From: a virus
Direction: 5' to 3' (one strand)
DNA length: 28,784 bases
IMG/VR virus record: IMGVR_UViG_3300024261_000121
Span: 1-28,784 of that record
Shown here: positions 9,505-28,784 of the stretch, piece by piece
Layout: every line of letters starts with the position of its first letter
Position numbering within the stretch: the stretch's first letter is position 1
Program-made: the position numbers and the translations under genes
The notes under the pieces: generated by a model
What the model was told of the DNA's origin: nothing
Database searches by the model: none
What the model saw: the letters and a program-made list of their open reading frames with translations, nothing else

Positions 9505-9566
9505 TTTGCTCTTGATCCTCCTGGTAATTGTTCAACGTCAAACCAACCGCATGGGTAATTAATCAT
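9501..9566 (-). CDS. 21-aa micro-ORF between methyltransferase and zinc-finger genes
   Basis: Reads MINYPCGWFDVEQLPGGSRA plus Lys. The ATG has AAGGAG seven bases upstream, the start overlaps the methyltransferase stop by 8 bp, and its TGA overlaps the next ATG as ATGA. It could be a leader that couples translation, or a real microprotein with an aromatic CGWFD core. Placement in an unbroken chain of overlaps is the main evidence. Confidence 0.5.
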   Translation of the reverse strand: MINYPCGWFDVEQLPGGSRAK

Positions 9567-10419
9567 TTTGTACTCCTTGTCCAAACATTCCTAATTCATT
9601 GTTAATTCTTGCATTAGCTAAATCTATGTATTCTTGGTTCAGCTCCAATAAAACTGCATTTCTACTGTGTTGTGCTGCAACTATGCCTGTTGTTCCAGAA
9701 CCACCAAAGGGATCTAAAACTGTACCGCCCTCTGGACAACCAGCTAAAACGCATGGTTCTATTAAGTCTTTGGGAAAGGTGGCAAAATGTGCGCCTTTAA
9801 ATGGTTTGGTAGTTATAGTCCATACAGATCTTTTATTTCTTTTGGGTTGTTCTTTCATATTAGATAAACCAGACCGAATATCAAAACCATTTTGACCTTG
9901 GTTTTTTTTACCAATTCCAGACATACCATTGGGCCTATACTCTCCCTTACTATTTTTATAAGTTGAATCTTCTTTTATTATTTCGTTGTCATAATAATAT
10001 TGTTTATTTTTTGATAATAAAAAAATATATTCATGGCAATTAGTTACCCTATCTCTTACGCTACTCGGCATGACTGCTGGTTTATGCCAAATAATATCGC
10101 TTCTTAATATCCATCCATCGCTTTGCAATCCAAAAGCTGTTCTCCAGGGCATACCTAATAATTGTTTATCTTTCCAACTATCGCCAAGATTAAGCCAAAC
10201 TGTTCCATCATCTCGCAACACTCTTTTGACCTCTCTAAATACATTGACCAAATTATCAACAAATTCCTCTGGTGTATCTTCCATACCTAACTGCTTGGAT
10301 TCATCGTTGTAATTACGCAATCCCCAATAAGGCGGACTAGTTATACAGGTGTTGATAGATTGATCTTCTAGTTTCTTTAATGATTCAATGCAATCGCCTT
10401 TCAATATTTCAATATTCAA
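9559..10419 (-). CDS. DNA methyltransferase, N4-cytosine or N6-adenine type
   Basis: The 286-aa protein has the circularly permuted beta-class order. The catalytic motif IV is near the start (CITSPPYWGLRNY, SPPY at ~28-31), with the target-recognition part in the middle. AdoMet-binding motif I is near the end (VLDPFGGSGTTGIVA). SPPY rather than DPPY is more often seen in N4-cytosine enzymes, but the base cannot be fixed from sequence. The start is TTG, overlapping the 49-aa gene by 11 bp. No cognate endonuclease is adjacent, so protection against host restriction or epigenetic control is likelier than a full restriction-modification system. Confidence 0.9.
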   Translation of the reverse strand: MNIEILKGDCIESLKKLEDQSINTCITSPPYWGLRNYNDESKQLGMEDTPEEFVDNLVNVFREVKRVLRDDGTVWLNLGDSWKDKQLLGMPWRTAFGLQSDGWILRSDIIWHKPAVMPSSVRDRVTNCHEYIFLLSKNKQYYYDNEIIKEDSTYKNSKGEYRPNGMSGIGKKNQGQNGFDIRSGLSNMKEQPKRNKRSVWTITTKPFKGAHFATFPKDLIEPCVLAGCPEGGTVLDPFGGSGTTGIVAAQHSRNAVLLELNQEYIDLANARINNELGMFGQGVQND

Positions 10420-10558
10420 TTCCTTTCCCCTTGCTTTTTATTTCAAAATGGTTGATCTCATTGTTATCAACCGCCTCTTTAAACTTCTCCTTCAATTCAT
10501 CTTGGCTAAGATTAATTGCATCTTTAATAAATATTACTGCTTTGACTGTATCGTTCAT
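10409..10558 (-). CDS. Hypothetical 49-aa protein between two methyltransferases
   Basis: Begins MNDTVKAVIFIKDAINLSQD at ATG 10558, which overlaps the cytosine methyltransferase stop as ATGA. A longer frame back to 10603 lies inside that gene. The protein is helical and charged, ending FEIKSKGKGIEY, with no recognised domain. Its tight coupling to both methyltransferases suggests a partner or simply filler. Confidence 0.55.
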   Translation of the reverse strand: MNDTVKAVIFIKDAINLSQDELKEKFKEAVDNNEINHFEIKSKGKGIEY

Positions 10559-11847
10559 GCTTCCATGTTCTTTAAGATGTGAGCAATAACTTCTATAGTC
10601 CAACCATTGCCAAGCATTTTATAACGCTGAGTGTTGCTGACATGGTTCGTATAATTATCTGGTACTGTTTGCAATCTCTCGCACTCTAAGGGTGTTAGCT
10701 TTCTCCAATAGACTTCATCTTGGGTTAAAACATTGTCCTTTTGTACTGTGGTAATGGTATTGGTCTTTTGGTCTTTGCGTAATTCTAAACGCTGACTAAT
10801 TGAGCCATCCTCGTTGTAACGGCCTCTGTAAGCACCCATAACAACTTTCGGTTCTCTGTTACCACCGCCCATCGTATTAACAGTTGGAGATTTACCATCA
10901 GGAGAATACACACGCTTTAATATATCGTGTCCATTAACATCAACTTCTGTTCCTATGTGTTGAGGCTTATCGCTAGTTTGTTTTATCCAAGTATTACCAT
11001 TAGATGAATTTGTCCTAAGTGTTGTAGATTTATCTCCCTTAATCATTTTTTTATTGTAAGGATCGCAAAAGTCTCCCTCTTCATTAGGTACATACTTAGG
11101 TACTGTTTCGTCTTTTATTTTGAATTGCTTTAAATGGTCTTGCTCTTTGTGTTTGGGTTTATCAATAGCAATAACCCCATAAGGAACTCCTTTGTGCATA
11201 TTGGCTGTTAAACACATCCCTTTTTGGCTTTCATGTTTTATGTAAATATCTTTTCTAGATTTTCCATTTGACCATTTTGGTGAATTTCTATTCATGTAGG
11301 CTACTGCTTTATCAGTTAAATAAGTATTAGCTTGTTCCTCTAAAATATCTCTTAAAACTATTCCCCTCTCCTCAGGTTGCTCAATCCCAGGAATGTTAGT
11401 CCAATAGTAACGCTGTCTTGACTGAGCAGAAACCAAAGAGCTATTAATAAAGATAGGTTCAACTCCCATGTACTCAGAAATAATATCTAAGTATTCTTTC
11501 TTCATTCTTACATTTTCTAATAAAAAATATTTAGGATTTAATTCTTTTACACACTTAACAAACTCAAAAAACAACATAGACCTTGGATCATCAAAGGCCA
11601 ACTGTTTACCTGCAAAGCTAAATCCTTGACATGGCGAGCCACCCATCACCAAATCAATCTTCGGTAAAGTAGATAAATCTAACTTAGTAATATCACCAAC
11701 ATGAATAATATCTGGGTAATTGGCTTGGCTTACTTGGATGGCATACTTATCAATCTCACTTGCGTAATAATTATCAACTTTAATTCCTAAACGATCTAAA
11801 GCAATCATTCCGCAACTCATTCCGTCAAACAAACTTAATACATTCAT
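10555..11847 (-). CDS. DNA (cytosine-5)-methyltransferase
   Basis: The 430-aa protein shows the C5 motifs in order: I LSLFDGMSCGMIALD (5-18), IV GGSPCQGFSFAG (69-80, catalytic Cys73), VI FLLENV (108-113), VIII AQSRQRYYW (141-149), IX RKLTPLECERLQTVPDNYT (~386-404) and X MLGNGWTIEVIAHIL. The target-recognition region between VIII and IX is long (~235 residues), so it may read a longer or multiple sites. The ATG has AAGGAG upstream and a good promoter lies in the 72-bp gap behind it. It likely modifies phage DNA against host restriction. Confidence 0.95.
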   Translation of the reverse strand: MNVLSLFDGMSCGMIALDRLGIKVDNYYASEIDKYAIQVSQANYPDIIHVGDITKLDLSTLPKIDLVMGGSPCQGFSFAGKQLAFDDPRSMLFFEFVKCVKELNPKYFLLENVRMKKEYLDIISEYMGVEPIFINSSLVSAQSRQRYYWTNIPGIEQPEERGIVLRDILEEQANTYLTDKAVAYMNRNSPKWSNGKSRKDIYIKHESQKGMCLTANMHKGVPYGVIAIDKPKHKEQDHLKQFKIKDETVPKYVPNEEGDFCDPYNKKMIKGDKSTTLRTNSSNGNTWIKQTSDKPQHIGTEVDVNGHDILKRVYSPDGKSPTVNTMGGGNREPKVVMGAYRGRYNEDGSISQRLELRKDQKTNTITTVQKDNVLTQDEVYWRKLTPLECERLQTVPDNYTNHVSNTQRYKMLGNGWTIEVIAHILKNMEA

Positions 11848-17072: not shown

Positions 17073-17264
17073 TTAACTTGCGACTGGTTCGATAGTTGAT
17101 TTAGTTTCTTCCTGCTCTATGACCTGAAGATCATAAAGAACCTTGCCACCCATTTTAGAATAGGTTGGGCCTTTGCCTTGCGCCCGATAATTTGCCAATG
17201 TTCTCGGAGACTTTCTCCATCTCTCTGCTAACTCTTCTTGTGTTAGCCAAACTTTATTATTCAT
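17073..17264 (-). CDS. Excisionase/AlpA-like helix-turn-helix protein
   Basis: The 63-aa protein reads WLTQEELAERWRKSPRTLAN, then YRAQGKGPTYSKMGGKVLYD: a MerR/HTH_17 fold in which the wing carries G-x-V-x-Y. Proteins of this kind act as excisionases or small regulators. It is the first gene of the long leftward early operon, with its own promoter and a divergent DUF3310 gene behind it. The integrase lies just to the right, so directing excision is plausible, as is regulation of this operon. Confidence 0.75.
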   Translation of the reverse strand: MNNKVWLTQEELAERWRKSPRTLANYRAQGKGPTYSKMGGKVLYDLQVIEQEETKSTIEPVAS

Positions 17265-17790: not shown

Positions 17791-18825
17791 TTACCCATTC
17801 ATAATAATCTTCTGAATATGGTCGCCAATCTTCTGTGCGTTCTCCACTGACACCTTTTCATGGATATGTGCATAGCGTTGAGTCGCTGCAATATCTCTAT
17901 GGCCCAACAAGTTACCGACCATACTTAGGTTCATATCCAAACCAATGCCAAAAGATGCATAACTATGTCGAAGATCATGCAATCTTAAATCTGGTGCATT
18001 GATTTGCTTTCTAATTCCATCCCAAAATTTTCTAGGACTACCGATCCCAACTATCGTGCCACTTGTTCTTGGCAAAGCATTAATAATGTTCATGGCTTGT
18101 TTAGATAAATAAATAACTCTGTCATCTCCATAACGCATTGTCTTGTGGTTTTTTAATGTAAGTTTATTGTCTTGCAAGTCTGACCATTTAGCACCAGCCA
18201 CCTCACCACACCTTGCGCCTGTTAATATCAACAACCAAATAAATGCAACTGAGTTAGTTAGCTCTGGTATTTTAGATTTAGCATTTAATATTCTTACAAC
18301 ACTATTCAGCTCTTCTTCTGTTAGATAGCGTTTACGTTTAGCCTCTGGGTTCTTTTCTATTCCGTCTATTGGGTGGTCTTTAATCTTGGCATGACGATAA
18401 GTTGCTTTTAATACTTCCAGGCATTTGTTAGCCATGATAGGTGCGCGTTGAGTTACCTTATCATGTAAAGTTTGTATCTCGCTGTCAGTAATTTCATCTA
18501 AATGCTTATGACCAAATAACTTCTTAATATCTTTGTCAAAAATTGCAGAATATTCTTTAGCACTCTTTGATCCTTTGTTGGTAAGTTTTTGCACATAGTT
18601 AGCAAACGCCTCATTCAATGTAAGCTTGTTCTTCTTATCCATTGGATCAATGCCAGTAGCCACTAGGCCCAAGTTCTTTTGTGCTAGGTTTCTTGCAACC
18701 TTAATAGGCAAGTCCAGAGATCCCAACTTCATGCTTCTACGCTTACCCTTAATTCTGTAGTAAACGTAATAACCAGTTGGGTATATTTTAAGTGCTTGTA
18801 TTTGCGTGTCGTTTTTGTATTTCAT
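17791..18825 (-). CDS. int: Tyrosine recombinase integrase
   Basis: The 344-aa protein has an N-terminal arm-binding domain (YVYYRIKGKRRSMKLGSLDL) and a core-binding SAM-like domain. The catalytic domain has Arg in LTGARCGEVAGA, His-x-x-Arg in LHDLRHSYAS, His in LLGHRD and the nucleophile Tyr in ATQRYAH. I start at ATG 18825 because GAGGAG lies just upstream; a frame from 18873 only adds residues shadowing the DUF1289 gene. It would recombine attP, about 385 bp to the right, with a host tRNA-Val gene. The stop lies in the palindrome GGTAAATTTACC. Confidence 0.95.
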   Translation of the reverse strand: MKYKNDTQIQALKIYPTGYYVYYRIKGKRRSMKLGSLDLPIKVARNLAQKNLGLVATGIDPMDKKNKLTLNEAFANYVQKLTNKGSKSAKEYSAIFDKDIKKLFGHKHLDEITDSEIQTLHDKVTQRAPIMANKCLEVLKATYRHAKIKDHPIDGIEKNPEAKRKRYLTEEELNSVVRILNAKSKIPELTNSVAFIWLLILTGARCGEVAGAKWSDLQDNKLTLKNHKTMRYGDDRVIYLSKQAMNIINALPRTSGTIVGIGSPRKFWDGIRKQINAPDLRLHDLRHSYASFGIGLDMNLSMVGNLLGHRDIAATQRYAHIHEKVSVENAQKIGDHIQKIIMNG

Positions 18826-19075
18826 CTTTGCTCCTCGTTTGTAGATGTCTAATGTCGTAATGTTCTGAAGCATTACGCAAGTTAATTATTTTTTTCTCTG
18901 TGTCAGAGAAAGTTCCCCAATCCCTTATTTCGGTTTGTGTTCTTCCACACCCCTTACATCGATCATCACCGAACTGTGTGGTTGAACAAATGCCAATACA
19001 AGGACTGTCTGCAACGCTCACACATCTCCCTAAAGTTTTAGATAGATCTGTAAATGTTCCAGTTTCAGTTTTCAT
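18788..19075 (-). CDS. DUF1289 Cys-rich protein overlapping integrase
   Basis: The 95-aa protein contains the DUF1289 signature: DSPCIGICSTTQFGDDRCKG at ~23-42, then CGRTQTEIRDWGTFSDTEKK. Four Cys (26, 30, 40, 43) probably bind zinc or an Fe-S centre. DUF1289 is normally a bacterial chromosomal protein, so it may have been captured from a host. Its last 38 bp overlap the integrase start, so both would be made from one message. No ribosome site precedes its ATG; a TGTCA/TGACA dyad does. Direct function is unknown. Confidence 0.8.
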   Translation of the reverse strand: MKTETGTFTDLSKTLGRCVSVADSPCIGICSTTQFGDDRCKGCGRTQTEIRDWGTFSDTEKKIINLRNASEHYDIRHLQTRSKDEIQKRHANTST

Positions 19076-19076
19076 T

Positions 19077-19159
19077 TGTCATACATTTGACAGCACTTAG
19101 GTGTTGTTTGTGTATTTATAGTATTAATAATGAATCAAGTATGACACTTTTGCAAGTGT
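19077..19159. promoter_or_regulatory. Integrase leader with TGTCA dyads and hairpin
   Basis: TGTCA (19077-19081) and TGACA (19088-19092) form a dyad touching the DUF1289 ATG. GTATGACAC at 19139-19147 repeats part of it inverted. ACACTT/AAGTGT (19144-19149/19154-19159) form a perfect 6-bp stem. They may be integrase arm sites or repressor operators. A TATAAA box lies between, but no clear -35 is seen. Confidence 0.4.
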
Positions 19160-19209
19160 TTCCCTAAATTAATGATGTATAGTGATTTGCAATGATACGT
19201 ATTTATATT

Positions 19210-19248
19210 GGTGTAAACGAGATGCTCTCCCAACTGAGCTAATCACCC
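19210..19248 (-). other. 5' half of tRNA-Val(TAC), probable attP core
   Basis: Read leftward, the 39 bases start GGGTGATTAGCTCAG and run through the D-arm (GCTC...GAGC), 5' anticodon stem TCTCG and loop TTTACAC with anticodon TAC, stopping after C39. The 3' half is missing: the next bases (AATATAAATACG) cannot complete the stem. Together with a tyrosine integrase ~385 bp away, this marks the integration site at the anticodon loop of a host tRNA-Val gene. The identity lies on the 5' side of the tRNA, the less common arrangement. Confidence 0.8.
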
Positions 19249-19271
19249 AAACGGCTGTTTTAAGCCAAAAA

Positions 19272-19745
19272 CTAGCCTATTGCAACCAATGAATTTTCGT
19301 CAAATAGATCCACATTTGTCATATGTCTGTCAGTATTAATCCATGCAATGCTATCCATAGCCCCCTGCAAACTATCTAACGAATTAAGATTTTTCATAAT
19401 TTCATCTGATATACAAATTGATTGTTTTTTGCAATTATTAAAAGGTAAGAAGTAAATAGTATTATATGGAACAGAGATAAGCGCAAAAACATCCAACGTG
19501 TTTTCTTGGTATTTTCTATTTTTGGTGTTAGCTCCTCTGCGTAAATCAAACCGCCAAGACACTCCACCTTTCTCAATGTTGTTTCTTGTTTTGACCTGGC
19601 ACTTAATTAAATGGTTGTTCCACTCAAAGATGACATCGGCTTCGGCTGCGTGAGGTAAGACTGTAACTGTATCGGAGACTTTGGCTAGAACTGAGGCGGT
19701 CAAGAACTCGCCACTACGACCAACCCTTTCCGTTTTTCTGGACAT
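19272..19745 (-). CDS. PD-(D/E)XK endonuclease, group I intron-endonuclease-like
   Basis: The 157-aa protein begins VGRSGEFLTASVLAKVSDTV (Glu13). It follows with PHAAEADVIFEWNNHLIKCQ and VKT, giving Asp37 and Gln50-x-Lys52, the layout of the PDDEXK_5 family that includes the cyanobacterial intron endonuclease I-Ssp6803I. No intron or HNH domain is present, so it is free-standing. It may cut competitor DNA or spread itself by homing. It is the last gene of the leftward structural block and ends 24 bp before the tRNA-Val half. Confidence 0.8.
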   Translation of the reverse strand: MSRKTERVGRSGEFLTASVLAKVSDTVTVLPHAAEADVIFEWNNHLIKCQVKTRNNIEKGGVSWRFDLRRGANTKNRKYQENTLDVFALISVPYNTIYFLPFNNCKKQSICISDEIMKNLNSLDSLQGAMDSIAWINTDRHMTNVDLFDENSLVAIG

Positions 19746-19751
19746 GGTTTA

Positions 19752-22730
19752 TTATTGTTTTAAATCCTGCATAAGATTTAATATTTCATTTGTAATAATA
19801 TCAGGATTTCTAATTTGCGTAACTTCTCTTGCAATTTTTTGATCTTCTAAAATTATACTTTTAATTAAATCTGTTTTAACGGAATCAACAACAGATTGAT
19901 AATTAGAAGATTTTATAACATTTTCTAGTTTTCTTTTTGTTCCCAAAGACAACATTTCTTTTAACATTCCTTCATATTGTTTAGGTTCTAACTTTACACT
20001 ACCAATTTTTCTTGATGGCGTTGATGGAGTTATTTTTAATCTTGCCAATTCATTAAATACAACATCATTTGTAATGGTAGATTTTTGTATTGGAGAAAAA
20101 GTTTTACCAATGTTGCCAAAAATTTCTGGAGAATAAGTAGATGTATATTCTATTGGTTCACCAAGAACATTTCTTCTGGCTGGTAGCTGTTGAGACATGG
20201 TGGGTATTCTGTTGTAAAAAGCATCAGTAAGCGTTTGTGCATCTCTAATTAATGGATCATCTGATTTTCTAACATAGTAAACAGCCGTTGGTACAAAACT
20301 TGAAGCAAATCTTTTTACCCAACCCTCTGCATATCTATCAGGATCAGATATAGCGTTAATTGCAGAGGTGATACCTGATAGAAAAGTTTTATTGGTTAAG
20401 TTCATTGATACAGAAGAACCTAACATTCCAGCAAGTTTATCAAACTCTGCTGCATCACCTTTGCTTTTTTCTTCTGATATATAATTTGATATTTCAACAC
20501 TATCCGCAGCCAATCCAAATAAAATTCCAGCAGGTTCAAATCTATTATAACCATAGTAAGAGTCGCCAATTTTTAAAGAATAAGGTTGCCAACCAGTTTC
20601 TTGAAGTATTCTTCTTTTCCTAAAATCAGAAGGGCCTCGACCAGTAACTAAATTATTACTCGCAAGATAAGCTATTGCACCCATAACAGAACTTCCAAAT
20701 ATAACTCTTGCTCTAGCTAAGTCTGCTTCAGCACCACCTTTTTTAATGGCTTCTTTGTAAGTTTTAGAGAATCTTCCCAAAGGAGTTCTTTGACCAGCGT
20801 ATTTAACTATATTAACTGGTGTTCTAAAAAATGGGATAATAAATCTTGCAGAGGGATGTTTTATTAAAAGGTCTTGAATTTTTTGTGCGCTTTCTCCAAG
20901 GGGGTTTGTAAAGGTTTGATACCTTGCAATGTCTTGAGACTTTAAATGTATATCTGGAAAATTCTTTTCTGGATTTTCTAATATCTCAAAAGCTCTTTTA
21001 ATTCCTTTGCCCTCTTTCTTTGACTGTCTTATTGCTTGTCCCCAAAGCTCTTGCCTGTAACCTATGCCTTTAAACAAAGCATCTTCTGCGGTTAAGAATC
21101 TTCCTGGCAATCTAACTGTGTCTCCTATCAGGTCATAGTTTCCAATCTTTAAAGGTGTGTTAATAGATTTTTGTCTTTGTAATTCTAATTTAGTTAAAGG
21201 ATCTGTAATTGTTTCAGGATCTATTATTGCTTTACCAAAAGCTCTTAAACCATCTAATGCTCCATAAACATTACCAAGAACTCTTGCTCCAAACTCTGTT
21301 GGCGTTACTTTGTCTGCACCTTTTCTTGCTGCACCAAGAACAGTAGCTATACCATATTCAGGTATTCTTGATGTTGCAACAAGGGCATTAGATAAAACAT
21401 TAACTAAATGTGTTGAAGGAGATGATAATAAAGAATTGATCCAAAATTCTTGAACTTGATCTCTAGTTGTAGCTTTAAAAGCCTGAGAAGAAAACTTTGC
21501 AATTTCGCTAGGCGAGTCTAATTTGCTCATAGCTTCTGCAATAGCTTCAATGGTTTCATCTCCGCCCTTTTGTTTTATAAATTCTTTTATTGCTCTTTCT
21601 TGCACAGCACCAGTTGACTTTGCTATTTCTCTAAATCCTCTTAATGCTCGACCAGCTTCAGCAGTAATTCCTGCAACCTGTTCTTGAATAGCAGTATGTT
21701 TTGTCATGCCCTCTTCAAGATTAATTAAATCTTGAGGAGTTCTATTTTTACCAGTTGCTTTCTTTGCTAGTTGAACCAAATTTTTAGCAGAGTTTATATT
21801 TAATACTCTAGCCGCATAAGATGTTTCTGCATTAAACGCTTCTCCTGTTTTTCTTTTTAATAATTGTTCTTCATCTAGTCCAGTTTCTTTTGCTAATGCT
21901 CTTAACTCTTCGCCATCACTTCCAAACTTAACCACTCCTCTAGTAGCTTCAGTAAAATTATTATTATCATTTGCAATATCTTTAATAATATTTTTTACTT
22001 CATCAGGACTGTCTACTTTAGTTAAATTAATATTTCCAGCAAAGTCTGGAGTTGGTTCAGGAGTTTCTACTTTTATTGGTTCAGGAGTTTCTACTTTTGC
22101 ATCAACACCTTCAATTTCTTCTGCAACATTTTTTGAACCTTTAATTCTACCAAGACCTTTTAAAACTCCTTCAACAGCAAGACCTAATCCAGCACCCTCA
22201 AGTGCCATTTTAAATCTACCCTCTGCTACTGAATCATTTGAATCGGCTTGTAAAAATTCTGTAACTGGGTTTTCTAATAATGGATATGATTGAACTAAAT
22301 TAGATAGTCTTTCTTCGTCTGGACTAAAAGCAAACTGTTCCGCTGCTGCACCAAGACTTGTTGTTTTTGCTACCTTTCCAGCAGTGGTCGCTGGTGCAAT
22401 AAACTTAGTTGCTTTAACAGCACCAGTATAAGGGACAAGAAATCCTGCAACATCTCTTACCAATCCTCCTCCTGTATAAGTTGGCTGTGGAACTTTTGGC
22501 AAGTCTGGAATATCAAACTCTGCTCCAACCAAGCCACCTGCATCTTCTACTAATTCTGCTGTTGCTTGTGCTGTATCTCTTAAAGCACCAACACCAGTTC
22601 TATATAATACATTTTCAGCAAGGCCTACTTGTGGTTTTGCTTGTTGTCCTTTAAAAGGATCTTGAGGTTTTAAAAACGGATCTTGAGGTTTAAGTTGATC
22701 CCTAGACTTTAAGAATGGATCTTGTGGCAT
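19752..22730 (-). CDS. Large internal virion/ejection-type protein
   Basis: The 992-aa protein starts with a repeated PQDPFLK-type motif (three copies in the first ~28 residues), followed by Gly/Ala-rich amphipathic stretches. A Pro/Glu linker follows (PEPIKVETPEPTPDF, ~215-228). The rest is a long helical body with LLSSPSTHLVNVLSNALVAT and a hydrophobic ARVIFGSSVMGAIAYLASNN. The length, composition and place after smaller ejection-type genes fit the big internal proteins that podoviruses release with DNA. No peptidoglycan-lytic motif was seen. Overlap with the preceding gene is TAATG. Confidence 0.6.
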   Translation of the reverse strand: MPQDPFLKSRDQLKPQDPFLKPQDPFKGQQAKPQVGLAENVLYRTGVGALRDTAQATAELVEDAGGLVGAEFDIPDLPKVPQPTYTGGGLVRDVAGFLVPYTGAVKATKFIAPATTAGKVAKTTSLGAAAEQFAFSPDEERLSNLVQSYPLLENPVTEFLQADSNDSVAEGRFKMALEGAGLGLAVEGVLKGLGRIKGSKNVAEEIEGVDAKVETPEPIKVETPEPTPDFAGNINLTKVDSPDEVKNIIKDIANDNNNFTEATRGVVKFGSDGEELRALAKETGLDEEQLLKRKTGEAFNAETSYAARVLNINSAKNLVQLAKKATGKNRTPQDLINLEEGMTKHTAIQEQVAGITAEAGRALRGFREIAKSTGAVQERAIKEFIKQKGGDETIEAIAEAMSKLDSPSEIAKFSSQAFKATTRDQVQEFWINSLLSSPSTHLVNVLSNALVATSRIPEYGIATVLGAARKGADKVTPTEFGARVLGNVYGALDGLRAFGKAIIDPETITDPLTKLELQRQKSINTPLKIGNYDLIGDTVRLPGRFLTAEDALFKGIGYRQELWGQAIRQSKKEGKGIKRAFEILENPEKNFPDIHLKSQDIARYQTFTNPLGESAQKIQDLLIKHPSARFIIPFFRTPVNIVKYAGQRTPLGRFSKTYKEAIKKGGAEADLARARVIFGSSVMGAIAYLASNNLVTGRGPSDFRKRRILQETGWQPYSLKIGDSYYGYNRFEPAGILFGLAADSVEISNYISEEKSKGDAAEFDKLAGMLGSSVSMNLTNKTFLSGITSAINAISDPDRYAEGWVKRFASSFVPTAVYYVRKSDDPLIRDAQTLTDAFYNRIPTMSQQLPARRNVLGEPIEYTSTYSPEIFGNIGKTFSPIQKSTITNDVVFNELARLKITPSTPSRKIGSVKLEPKQYEGMLKEMLSLGTKRKLENVIKSSNYQSVVDSVKTDLIKSIILEDQKIAREVTQIRNPDIITNEILNLMQDLKQ

Positions 22731-23521
22731 TATTCACCTTTGGTATATTCTATGCCATTAAAAATAAATTTATCGCCATTATTTAATTTTTCATATATGC
22801 CATCTTCTTCGTTTATTATTGTAGGAATATCGCTAAAAGGATCACTAAGACCAATTTGATTATAAATACTTCTTTTGTATATTTCTAAAGGATCAGTTGC
22901 AGAAATGGTGTCTAATATATTCTGTTCTGATTTTGAAAGCTCATAGGTTGGTTCATCTTCTGTTGGTACATGATTTTTAATGTTTTGCAAAATATCTACA
23001 ACAAAATCACTTTTAGTTGTTTTAGGTGGTTTAGGTGATGGCGCATTAGGTAAAACTGGTTCTCCTGTGTCCGCATAATATTGAATACCATTTTGTAAAA
23101 TAATTTTTCTGTCTTTTGCAGTTGGTAATTTTAAACCTGGGAATAATGTATTTAATTTAATTGCGTTTCTGTACTGAGGATTGTTTTTTACAAATTCGTT
23201 TTGTTGCGTTTTTAGTAATGCCTCTTTCTGTTTTTGTTCTGCCAATGCTTTTCGTTGAGCCATCCTGTCAGAGAAAATTTTAGAAGCTCCATAGTTGCCT
23301 GATTTATTTGCATTAACCATTCGCATCGTATCAGCGAATTGTTGCAACTTCATACTTTGGTCTGCTCTTTTTCTTTGTTCTTGTTCTGCCAAACCATCAT
23401 TTATTTTTTTTTGATCAATAGCTTGTTGAACTTGAGCTTGATCGATGTTGAACAAATTTGGAGTGCTGTTAAAACCTGAAACTCTAGGTTGAAATAAGTT
23501 TGGGATATTGTTTATTGCCAT
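22730..23521 (-). CDS. Hypothetical coiled-coil structural protein (ejection module)
   Basis: The 263-aa protein starts MAINNIPNLFQPRVSGFNST. Gln/Lys-rich helices follow (QVQQAIDQKKINDGLAEQEQ, MAQRKALAEQKQKEALLKTQ), then a Pro-rich middle (NAPSPKPPKTTKSD) and an acidic C-terminal domain. No family is recognised. Position between two virion-type genes and the coiled-coil character suggest an ejection protein. Confidence 0.6.
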   Translation of the reverse strand: MAINNIPNLFQPRVSGFNSTPNLFNIDQAQVQQAIDQKKINDGLAEQEQRKRADQSMKLQQFADTMRMVNANKSGNYGASKIFSDRMAQRKALAEQKQKEALLKTQQNEFVKNNPQYRNAIKLNTLFPGLKLPTAKDRKIILQNGIQYYADTGEPVLPNAPSPKPPKTTKSDFVVDILQNIKNHVPTEDEPTYELSKSEQNILDTISATDPLEIYKRSIYNQIGLSDPFSDIPTIINEEDGIYEKLNNGDKFIFNGIEYTKGE

Positions 23522-27064: not shown

Positions 27065-28135
27065 CTATCTTGCTGTTGTTGGAATACCTGTTGATGTTAC
27101 GAATGGATTTTCTGCAAATGCCATGTAGATGTATGTTCCACCGCTTGCGTTTTGTGATGCACTTGAAGCTCTTAACTTAAATCCATTAGACAATAAATCT
27201 ACAGAAGTTGTTGAAGCATCTTCTGCTGAAGGGTCATCGGGATAAAGTTTGTCTTGTTTAGGGTTATAACCCGACCTTTTATGGTCATAAATTAACCAGT
27301 TATTAGCCGCATCAATTCTTCTTAAAATAATCATAGCAGGTTTAAATCCTGTATAGACAAACGAACCATTTGCATCTCCATTACCGACATATTTACCAAA
27401 CTTGCTGTAGCCTTGTCGTTCTTTCCAACAATAAGCTACAAGATTTTCGTTAGGTTGATTAACAGCAGCATTTTCTCCTGTTGTAATAATTGTGCTGCTT
27501 GGAGCTACATTTCCCCACAGGGTAGAGTTTGCTAGTTCTCCGTATGTACTAGTGTTTAATTGTAAATATCTATTTGCAGCAGGAGATGTTAATTCTTTAT
27601 GATATACAGCCCATAACCTAGCACTTGACCTATTTTTAATAATAATTACATCAGGAGCTTCGCCCATCCCATGTCCAACTTGCAAAGGCTCAATAGGGTC
27701 TTTACCTGTATAAGTAACAATAGAAAAACCTGCTGTTGAATTAAATTGAACAGTAGAAGTTAAATCTCCATCCGTATTGCTTGAGGTCGTACCACCATTG
27801 GCTTTCCATTGCCAAGCTACATATTCGTCAGGGTTTGTGCCATTATTAATAGTAGAACTTGTTCCTAAAGTAAAACCATCAGTTGTAAAAGATTTTAAAG
27901 TTGAAGTTTCAGTAGATTCAGCACCAGTAGTATTAGATTGAATTCTTTTAGTCGCACCCCTTGTACTGTCAAACAAAGCATGGCTTTGTGCTTGAGTTCT
28001 ATCTTTTAACCAAACCCAGTCAGGTTTTAAATCAGAATTTCCATCATTGGTAACTTGTCTGTCATCATTGTTATCACCAGTATAAGTAGCAACTTGAAAA
28101 TATGCAGATGGGTCGTCTATTGTTGTATAAGCCAT
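27065..28135 (-). CDS. Tail fibre / receptor-binding protein, DUF7483-like
   Basis: About 356 aa from ATG 28135, which overlaps the upstream stop as TAATG; a frame from 28165 is rejected. It has at least two similar blocks. The first carries 'vATYTGdnn...pDWVWLKDRTQAQSHALFDSTRGATKRI...DGFTLG...YVAWQWKA' and the second 'IVTYTGKD...PDVIIIKNRS.ARLWAVYHKEL...YCWKE'. This repeating pattern is common in receptor-binding proteins of marine phages. Being last but one in the visible tail cluster fits a host-recognition role. Confidence 0.75.
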   Translation of the reverse strand: MAYTTIDDPSAYFQVATYTGDNNDDRQVTNDGNSDLKPDWVWLKDRTQAQSHALFDSTRGATKRIQSNTTGAESTETSTLKSFTTDGFTLGTSSTINNGTNPDEYVAWQWKANGGTTSSNTDGDLTSTVQFNSTAGFSIVTYTGKDPIEPLQVGHGMGEAPDVIIIKNRSSARLWAVYHKELTSPAANRYLQLNTSTYGELANSTLWGNVAPSSTIITTGENAAVNQPNENLVAYCWKERQGYSKFGKYVGNGDANGSFVYTGFKPAMIILRRIDAANNWLIYDHKRSGYNPKQDKLYPDDPSAEDASTTSVDLLSNGFKLRASSASQNASGGTYIYMAFAENPFVTSTGIPTTAR

Positions 28136-28784
28136 TATCCGTACTCCGCTAAATTCTTTGTACACAAGGCGTAGTAGCCTGTAGGTGGTGCGTATTCAAA
28201 AGTTCCGTAGCCGTTGGCATCACTTGCTGCACTTGATATTGTGCTTCCTGTGTATCCGCCTAAATTAATCCTGCTATTAAGACCGCTTCCGTAATGAGAA
28301 ACAAATGGGAAAAATTCTCCGTTGCCTATTAAACCATCTATGGAAAAAGCACTATTAACGATTGTGCCATTTCTATAGAAAGCAATCGTGTTGGCATCTA
28401 AATCTAAAGCAACTCCCCAAATATCAGTTGTAGCAAATGTTTTAGTAAAGGCTTCACTTCTTGCACTAGGGTCATAGAAATAAATATTATTATCGTTCAT
28501 GGGTATCGCCAAAGTGTATGCTTCCGCATAAGATTGAGCCGCTGCTCCCGCAACTTGACTTTGAATACCAAACATAGTGTCACTCCCACTAAAGCTACTA
28601 TGTTCCCAGTACCACTTGCCATTAGTCACACCAATAGAACCTTTTGCTCCACCCCAAGCAGCAACAGTATTTGCTACTTTTGTAGCTCCGTCTGAAATTC
28701 CCATTGTTTGAGTCCATTTCCACAATGGATTAAGCGTACAAAAATTATTAGTAGGCGTGTCCGTAGCTATATCAGCTGACGACC
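28135..28784 (-). CDS. SPRY/concanavalin-like tail fibre protein, N-terminus cut by window edge
   Basis: The frame is open to the right edge; a start at TTG 28725 is not needed. Upstream residues read ATDTPTNNFCTLNPLWKWTQ, a motif common in this family. A SPRY-type core follows: GKWYWEHSSFSGSD, WGVALDLDANTIAFYRNGT, FFPFVSHYGSG. The C-terminus is FEYAPPTGYYALCTKNLAEY. Such domains bind carbohydrate or protein at the cell surface, so this is a receptor-binding protein. It overlaps the next fibre gene as TAATG. Confidence 0.8.
   Translation of the reverse strand, partial: SSADIATDTPTNNFCTLNPLWKWTQTMGISDGATKVANTVAAWGGAKGSIGVTNGKWYWEHSSFSGSDTMFGIQSQVAGAAAQSYAEAYTLAIPMNDNNIYFYDPSARSEAFTKTFATTDIWGVALDLDANTIAFYRNGTIVNSAFSIDGLIGNGEFFPFVSHYGSGLNSRINLGGYTGSTISSAASDANGYGTFEYAPPTGYYALCTKNLAEYG

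Follow-up and report, generated by a model that had tools for sequence, protein, structure and literature searches.

Zhao and Williams (cited in PMC6563490) reportedly described in 2002 an element that reverses the usual orientation of its target, and in that element, as in the 5′-fragment islands of the Islander collection and apparently in the phage DNA analyzed here, it is the mobile element that supplies the 5′ part of the tRNA. Such polarity is a documented minority: of 3,919 islands in Islander, 159 (about 4%) carry a 5′ tDNA fragment and 3,760 a 3′ fragment (PMC4383910), in keeping with the statement of an earlier reading of this DNA (the original prediction) that most integrases retain the 3′ part of the tRNA, and 5′ recombination has been called considerably rarer (PMC6563490). 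The present phage belongs to this minority and is not a new kind. Compared with the Islander 5′ islands, it contributes an attP from a marine phage, located at tRNA-Val(TAC), with recurrence at that tRNA, alleles among siblings that appear specific to two hosts, and an apparent flip of polarity within one integrase clade.

Several described systems invite closer comparison. The archaeal pTN3-like integrases can be likened to the present case in that their attB is a tRNA 5′ half and element DNA drives the expression of the rebuilt gene (PMC8371274). Here, in contrast, the integrase is of the bacterial phage type and would lie at the opposite junction, beside the dead 5′ fragment, so that the integrase promoter could not drive the rebuilt tRNA. 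As a rule, and barring very few exceptions, it is the host's original promoter that drives a rebuilt tRNA in bacteria (PMC8371274). The class A integrases (Williams 2002), as represented in PMC4383910 and PMC8371274, share with our locus anticodon-stem symmetry and a seven-base anticodon-loop overlap, the latter putative here; in those accounts their identity block reaches the tRNA 3′ end, whereas ours reaches the 5′ end. T7-like cyanophages and pelagiphages with a tRNA-Leu attP are likewise marine and likewise combine an integrase with a tRNA-matching attP whose alleles tell the host (PMC8776855; PMC6811365; PMC3861242), theirs being tRNA-Leu and ours a tRNA-Val 5′ half. Closest in form are the Synechococcus phages Yong-M3-232 and Ssp-JY40 (L002/L003), which carry a 39-base tRNA-Val 5′ half (36/39 match) beside an integrase, but their integrase is unrelated (23% identity) and the gene orientation is opposite. 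In these isolated cyanophages the half lies 36 bases from the integrase stop and bears no annotated feature.

The window, by which we mean the whole 28,784-base stretch of an IMG/VR virus record, has the following features around the half-tRNA.

17073–17264, minus strand: HTH_17 protein, excisionase-like, PHROG_7735
17791–18825, minus strand: tyrosine integrase, 344 aa, PF00589 with arm-binding PF13356, PHROG_1
18788–19075, minus strand: DUF1289 protein, between attP and integrase
18826–19209, minus strand: putative P′ arm, from half-tRNA to integrase start
19210–19248, minus strand: putative attP half-tRNA, tRNA-Val(TAC) positions 1–39, 5′ end at 19248
19211–19217, minus strand: TTTACAC, seven-base anticodon loop T32–C38, putative strand-exchange (overlap) region, the intersection of 5′-half and 3′-half identity blocks
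19257–19285, minus strand: promoter-like TTGCAA-17-TAAAAC, a weak candidate that the family conserves, its end lying 8 bases ahead of tRNA position 1
19272–19745, minus strand: PD-(D/E)XK-like protein, product of the final gene ahead of the half-tRNA, with homologues in the same place in contigs L271 and L043
19752–28725, minus strand: structural genes (internal virion, tail), upstream of the half-tRNA on the same strand

The reverse complement of 19210–19248, GGGTGATTAGCTCAGTTGGGAGAGCATCTCGTTTACACC, has its anticodon TAC at 19213–19215 on the minus strand and is identical at 39/39 bases to positions 1–39 of SAR86-type tRNA-Val(TAC) genes. Complete genes of that type run on past position 39 as GAGAGGGTC..., unlike the window, which runs on as AATATAAATAC.... 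At three or fewer mismatches the half-tRNA was matched once, against an expectation of 0 from 100 dinucleotide shuffles; the predicted match from the first acceptor base through C39, followed by divergence, is confirmed by these comparisons. ARAGORN found no tRNA in the window, which may be an incomplete genome, and a search of the window for the tRNA 3′ half returned none, with T-arm-like motifs at chance frequency. A split or intron-containing tRNA is ruled out, the window having no 3′ half. Judged by its sequence, the element is of reversed (5′-restoring) polarity, with the tRNA 5′ part present and the 3′ part absent. C39 probably lies outside the required attP block, although the literal match reaches it, because the conserved block of related phages stops at C38: the divergent relatives L022 and L043 lose tRNA identity from position 39, and among the matches listed 15 of 46 distinct 5′-half contexts have zero matching bases past C38.

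On its truncated side the half-tRNA is followed by the DUF1289 gene, the integrase, and the excisionase-like gene; on the other side, 23 bases separate it from the end of the PD-(D/E)XK-like gene. The integrase catalytic residues R205, H283, R286, H309, and Y318 are all invariant, and GTATTTATA is repeated in the putative P′ arm, at 19112 and 19199. By this R-H-R-H-Y set, the arm-binding domain, and an attP block that coincides with a segment of a host tRNA gene, the window reads as that of a tyrosine integrase phage with a tRNA attP. An integrase search of viral contigs returned 21 loci, 20 at 92–100% identity and one at 73%, and every relative (73–98% integrase identity) whose contig reaches the site carries the 5′ half alone, cut at the same position. 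The half is nearly invariant among them, and the sequence past position 38/39 varies (L014, L022). A complete tRNA at this locus in other isolates, one of the findings that the original prediction had named as its own refutation, was sought and occurs in no relative reaching the site. Elsewhere in the window, two DNA methyltransferase-like genes (9559–10419 and 10555–11847) lie in regions that vary between sibling phages.

We consider it highly probable that the 39 bases are the attP of a tyrosine-integrase phage that inserts into the anticodon loop of the host tRNA-Val(TAC) gene, the 5′ half coming from the phage. The proposal is built from the half-tRNA, its conservation, the neighboring integrase and xis-like gene, and integrated examples in other groups. 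Strand exchange by the window phage would occur across the seven-base loop, and the phage arm beside the structural genes would contribute tRNA positions 1–38. After integration, the host's own 5′ half and promoter would persist next to the integrase as a nonfunctional fragment, and a complete tRNA, phage 5′ half joined to host 3′ half, would be rebuilt at the far prophage end, downstream of the structural genes. The expected junctions are an attL of host flank, half, and AATATAAATAC, and an attR of CAGCCGTTT and the complete tRNA.

The location of the crossover and the question of polarity are informed by phages that carry the other half of the same tRNA, found in at least 28 distinct contexts. 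Their tRNA identity starts at T32 or earlier and that of the 5′-half phages ends at C38 or later, and we infer the crossover to be TTTACAC, the seven-base anticodon loop, as in class A (anticodon-loop) integrases, because this is the part common to both identity blocks. A seven-base overlap is usual for tRNA-targeting integrases (PMC8371274). Contig L271, whose integrase is 45% identical to that of the window, has the PD-(D/E)XK gene, att site, and integrase in the window's order and orientation, with tRNA identity on the other arm: it carries the 3′ half, from T32, of SAR11 type. Because the more distant L043 (34% identity) is a 5′-half phage, polarity appears to have switched at least once in this clade, in an integrase tree made by a quick method and containing long branches. 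All 23 integrases of another, separate clade are of the 5′ type. At tRNA-Val(TAC), 5′-half phages are by these sequence matches as easily found as 3′-half ones, the counts coming from two differently designed scans and from the matches listed, and so not being a rate.

Were an element to supply the 5′ half, the order would be host flank, half, integrase, remainder of the element, complete tRNA, host flank, and this order is seen in integrated phages of other integrase groups. Prophage contig 3300006353_000002 has the half and integrase at one end and, 42.8 kb away at the opposite end, the complete tRNA; 3300034142_000033 has the same arrangement, its tRNA being cut by the contig end; and 3300005511_000022 has both half and complete copies, with no integrase seen in the short stretch examined. 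In the SAR86 genome AG-325-G09 (L208), a 2,982-base insert is flanked by two copies of the tRNA-Val 5′ half, and four loci (L159, L180, L186, L172) represent the empty site, collinear with L208 on both sides and free of the insert. The insert appears to be a remnant or satellite, because no integrase was found in it. This is the only genome with two copies of the site among 162 SAR11-order and 203 SAR86-order genomes. The attP reading, also favored by the anatomy of the window, gains from these integrated examples in other integrase groups and from the SAR86 island; the predicted reversal of polarity is borne out by the integrated contigs and the L208 duplication; and the predicted position of the rebuilt tRNA, on the downstream side of the structural genes, fits the window and has the geometry of other groups' prophages. 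The same 365 genomes yielded no lysogen of the window's own family above E 1e-30, the one exception being a 31%-identical integrase at another place. A scan of genome contigs based on the integrase alignment gave 125 pattern matches and 0 relatives, a weak line of evidence given the poor peptides. As a locus in its own right, the SAR86 tRNA-Val site, which adjoins a rhodopsin-like gene, bears a variable island (L208:1202–4259) that in L208 is bounded by duplicated 5′ tRNA halves and contains a TonB-receptor-like gene; in L185 the island has a different gene.

The rebuilt tRNA would have to be transcribed from phage DNA. Near the window's half, a generic promoter scan gave promoter-like sites at chance level only. 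Across 33 contexts (the 5′-half group of 23 integrases and other GGGC-type halves, some on short contigs that may show host sequence), TTG[AC]C occurs at −55 to −38 upstream of the half in 17, against 1.1 expected from shuffles, mostly at −45 to −47. Among these contexts are contigs on which over 5 kb precede the half, as well as integrated copies viewed on their phage side, and the 23-integrase and GGGC-type phages seem to bring a −35-like box or promoter along with the half. About 70 bases upstream of the half, many 5′-half phages (L053, L056, L060, L108, L133) also share a conserved motif resembling CCGCTCCGTTCCG, which may be an integrase arm site.

The half-tRNA of the siblings (GGGTGTTTAGCTCAGYTGGTAGAGC...) differs from that of the window (GGGTGATTAGCTCAGTTGGGAGAGC...) at two positions, 6 and 20, and these are exactly the differences between SAR11 and SAR86. 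In a species-genome scan covering 85,000 genomes, with counts of the matches listed, the window's allele occurs at no fewer than 28 loci: 22 have SAR86 in their titles, four more (L164, L167, L217, L240) are SAR86-like by 3′ half and title (Gammaproteobacteria or Proteobacteria), and two are alphaproteobacteria, so that SAR86 accounts for about 26 of 28. The siblings' allele occurs at 78 or more loci, all those listed being titled Alphaproteobacteria or Pelagibacteraceae. Order-wide searches found the tRNA-Val site in 124 of 162 SAR11-order and 27 of 203 SAR86-order genomes, with the D-loop base T in 124/124 of the former and G in 27/27 of the latter. The window's half pairs fully with a SAR86 3′ half, A6 restoring pairing with T67, and with a SAR11 3′ half leaves an A–A mismatch at 6:67. 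This allele match makes SAR86 the probable host of the window phage. The alphaproteobacterial affinity originally suggested accordingly suits the sibling phages, with their SAR11 allele, and the window's own allele is instead that of SAR86, a gammaproteobacterial group.

Other observations concern the flanks of these genes. The phage upstream sequence has AACAGCCGTTT in common with SAR11 upstream sequence (shuffle p about 0.01–0.03), which is only suggestive of homology. AACAGCC lies within 35 bases upstream of all 81 of 81 SAR11-type tRNA-Val genes (L137, L143, and L168, for example), and in the loci inspected this motif sits inside an extended inverted repeat (CGGCTGTTAAA/TTTAACAGCCG) that has a T-run. 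The phage carries TTAAAACAGCCGTTT in that place. Five tRNA genes lie on a short viral contig, one of them a complete tRNA-Val (L004:3224–3299) identical to the SAR86 gene, which suggests a SAR86 phage. The internal virion and tail-fiber modules of the window (19752–23521 and 27065–28725) are highly variable between siblings, with neighboring genes 94–100% identical; considered as support for a host jump, they were set aside for lack of discrimination, differing equally between two SAR11-type siblings.

A broader reading, which we advance tentatively and at less than even odds, is that the repair half is a loose property of an attP arm and not of the integrase: related integrases would cut one anticodon loop in one orientation, either arm may bear the repair half, a 5′-type phage would move a cassette of promoter and 5′ half that needs to match the host 3′ half, and the window phage would record a jump from the SAR11 to the SAR86 allele, between bacterial classes. 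Such a jump would vanish if the SAR86-type allele were an assembly error at a 39-base repeat common with an abundant SAR86 genome, the phage being an ordinary SAR11 phage. A6/G20 is indeed found in one contig (the window's) of about 19, the flanks, including the sequence upstream, resemble their counterparts in the SAR11-type siblings in spite of the SAR86-type half, and the protein encoded by the gene beside the half is identical in a sibling. We nevertheless find the error improbable, given that a 39-base repeat is short for assembly, that two informative positions changed together, and that the surrounding region is about 5% different from the sibling anyway.

Somewhat more credible than that error, if still unlikely, is a genuine attP used for transient integration by an essentially lytic phage, for which T7-like cyanophages with a tRNA-Leu attP are a precedent (PMC8776855); no repressor was recognized among the genes scanned, and the SAR11 and SAR86 genomes searched hold no prophages. 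Against it stand the excisionase-like gene and the stable prophages of the same geometry in other integrase groups. That the half-tRNA plays no part in integration, being left over from a phage-encoded tRNA gene or acting as a decoy or regulatory RNA, would accord with the frequency of tRNA genes in phages, the complete tRNA-Val with an identical 39-mer in L004, and the failure to find lysogens of the family in the genomes searched. It is very unlikely, however: the half adjoins the integrase in every relative reaching it and in most unrelated 5′-half phages, is cut at the anticodon loop, where 3′-half phages start, stays fixed while its flanks change, and has integrated counterparts in other groups. 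Least probable, to the point of being barely worth entertaining, is tRNA-dependent lysogeny, in which the host tRNA is lost on integration and replaced in function by one from the phage, as known in mycobacteriophages (PMC10865867); HTVC019P-group pelagiphages reportedly have a tRNA-Leu of their own (PMC6811365), but the possibly incomplete window has no complete tRNA, and its identity block of 38–39 bases rebuilds the gene, where a core of about 10 bp and a complete phage tRNA of the same isotype would be expected. Insertion with restoration of the 5′ half thus remains the reading we prefer.

Such 5′-half sites can escape automated island finders and annotators that are geared to 3′ fragments. 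Because pairing is required between the half-tRNA and the half kept by the host, the attP may serve as a host tag, pointing to SAR86 for the window phage and to SAR11 for its siblings. A 5′-restoring phage would take over an apparently single-copy, probably essential tRNA of small-genome ocean bacteria, and with tRNA-Val(TAC) under phage control, lysogens would need phage DNA for the decoding of valine.
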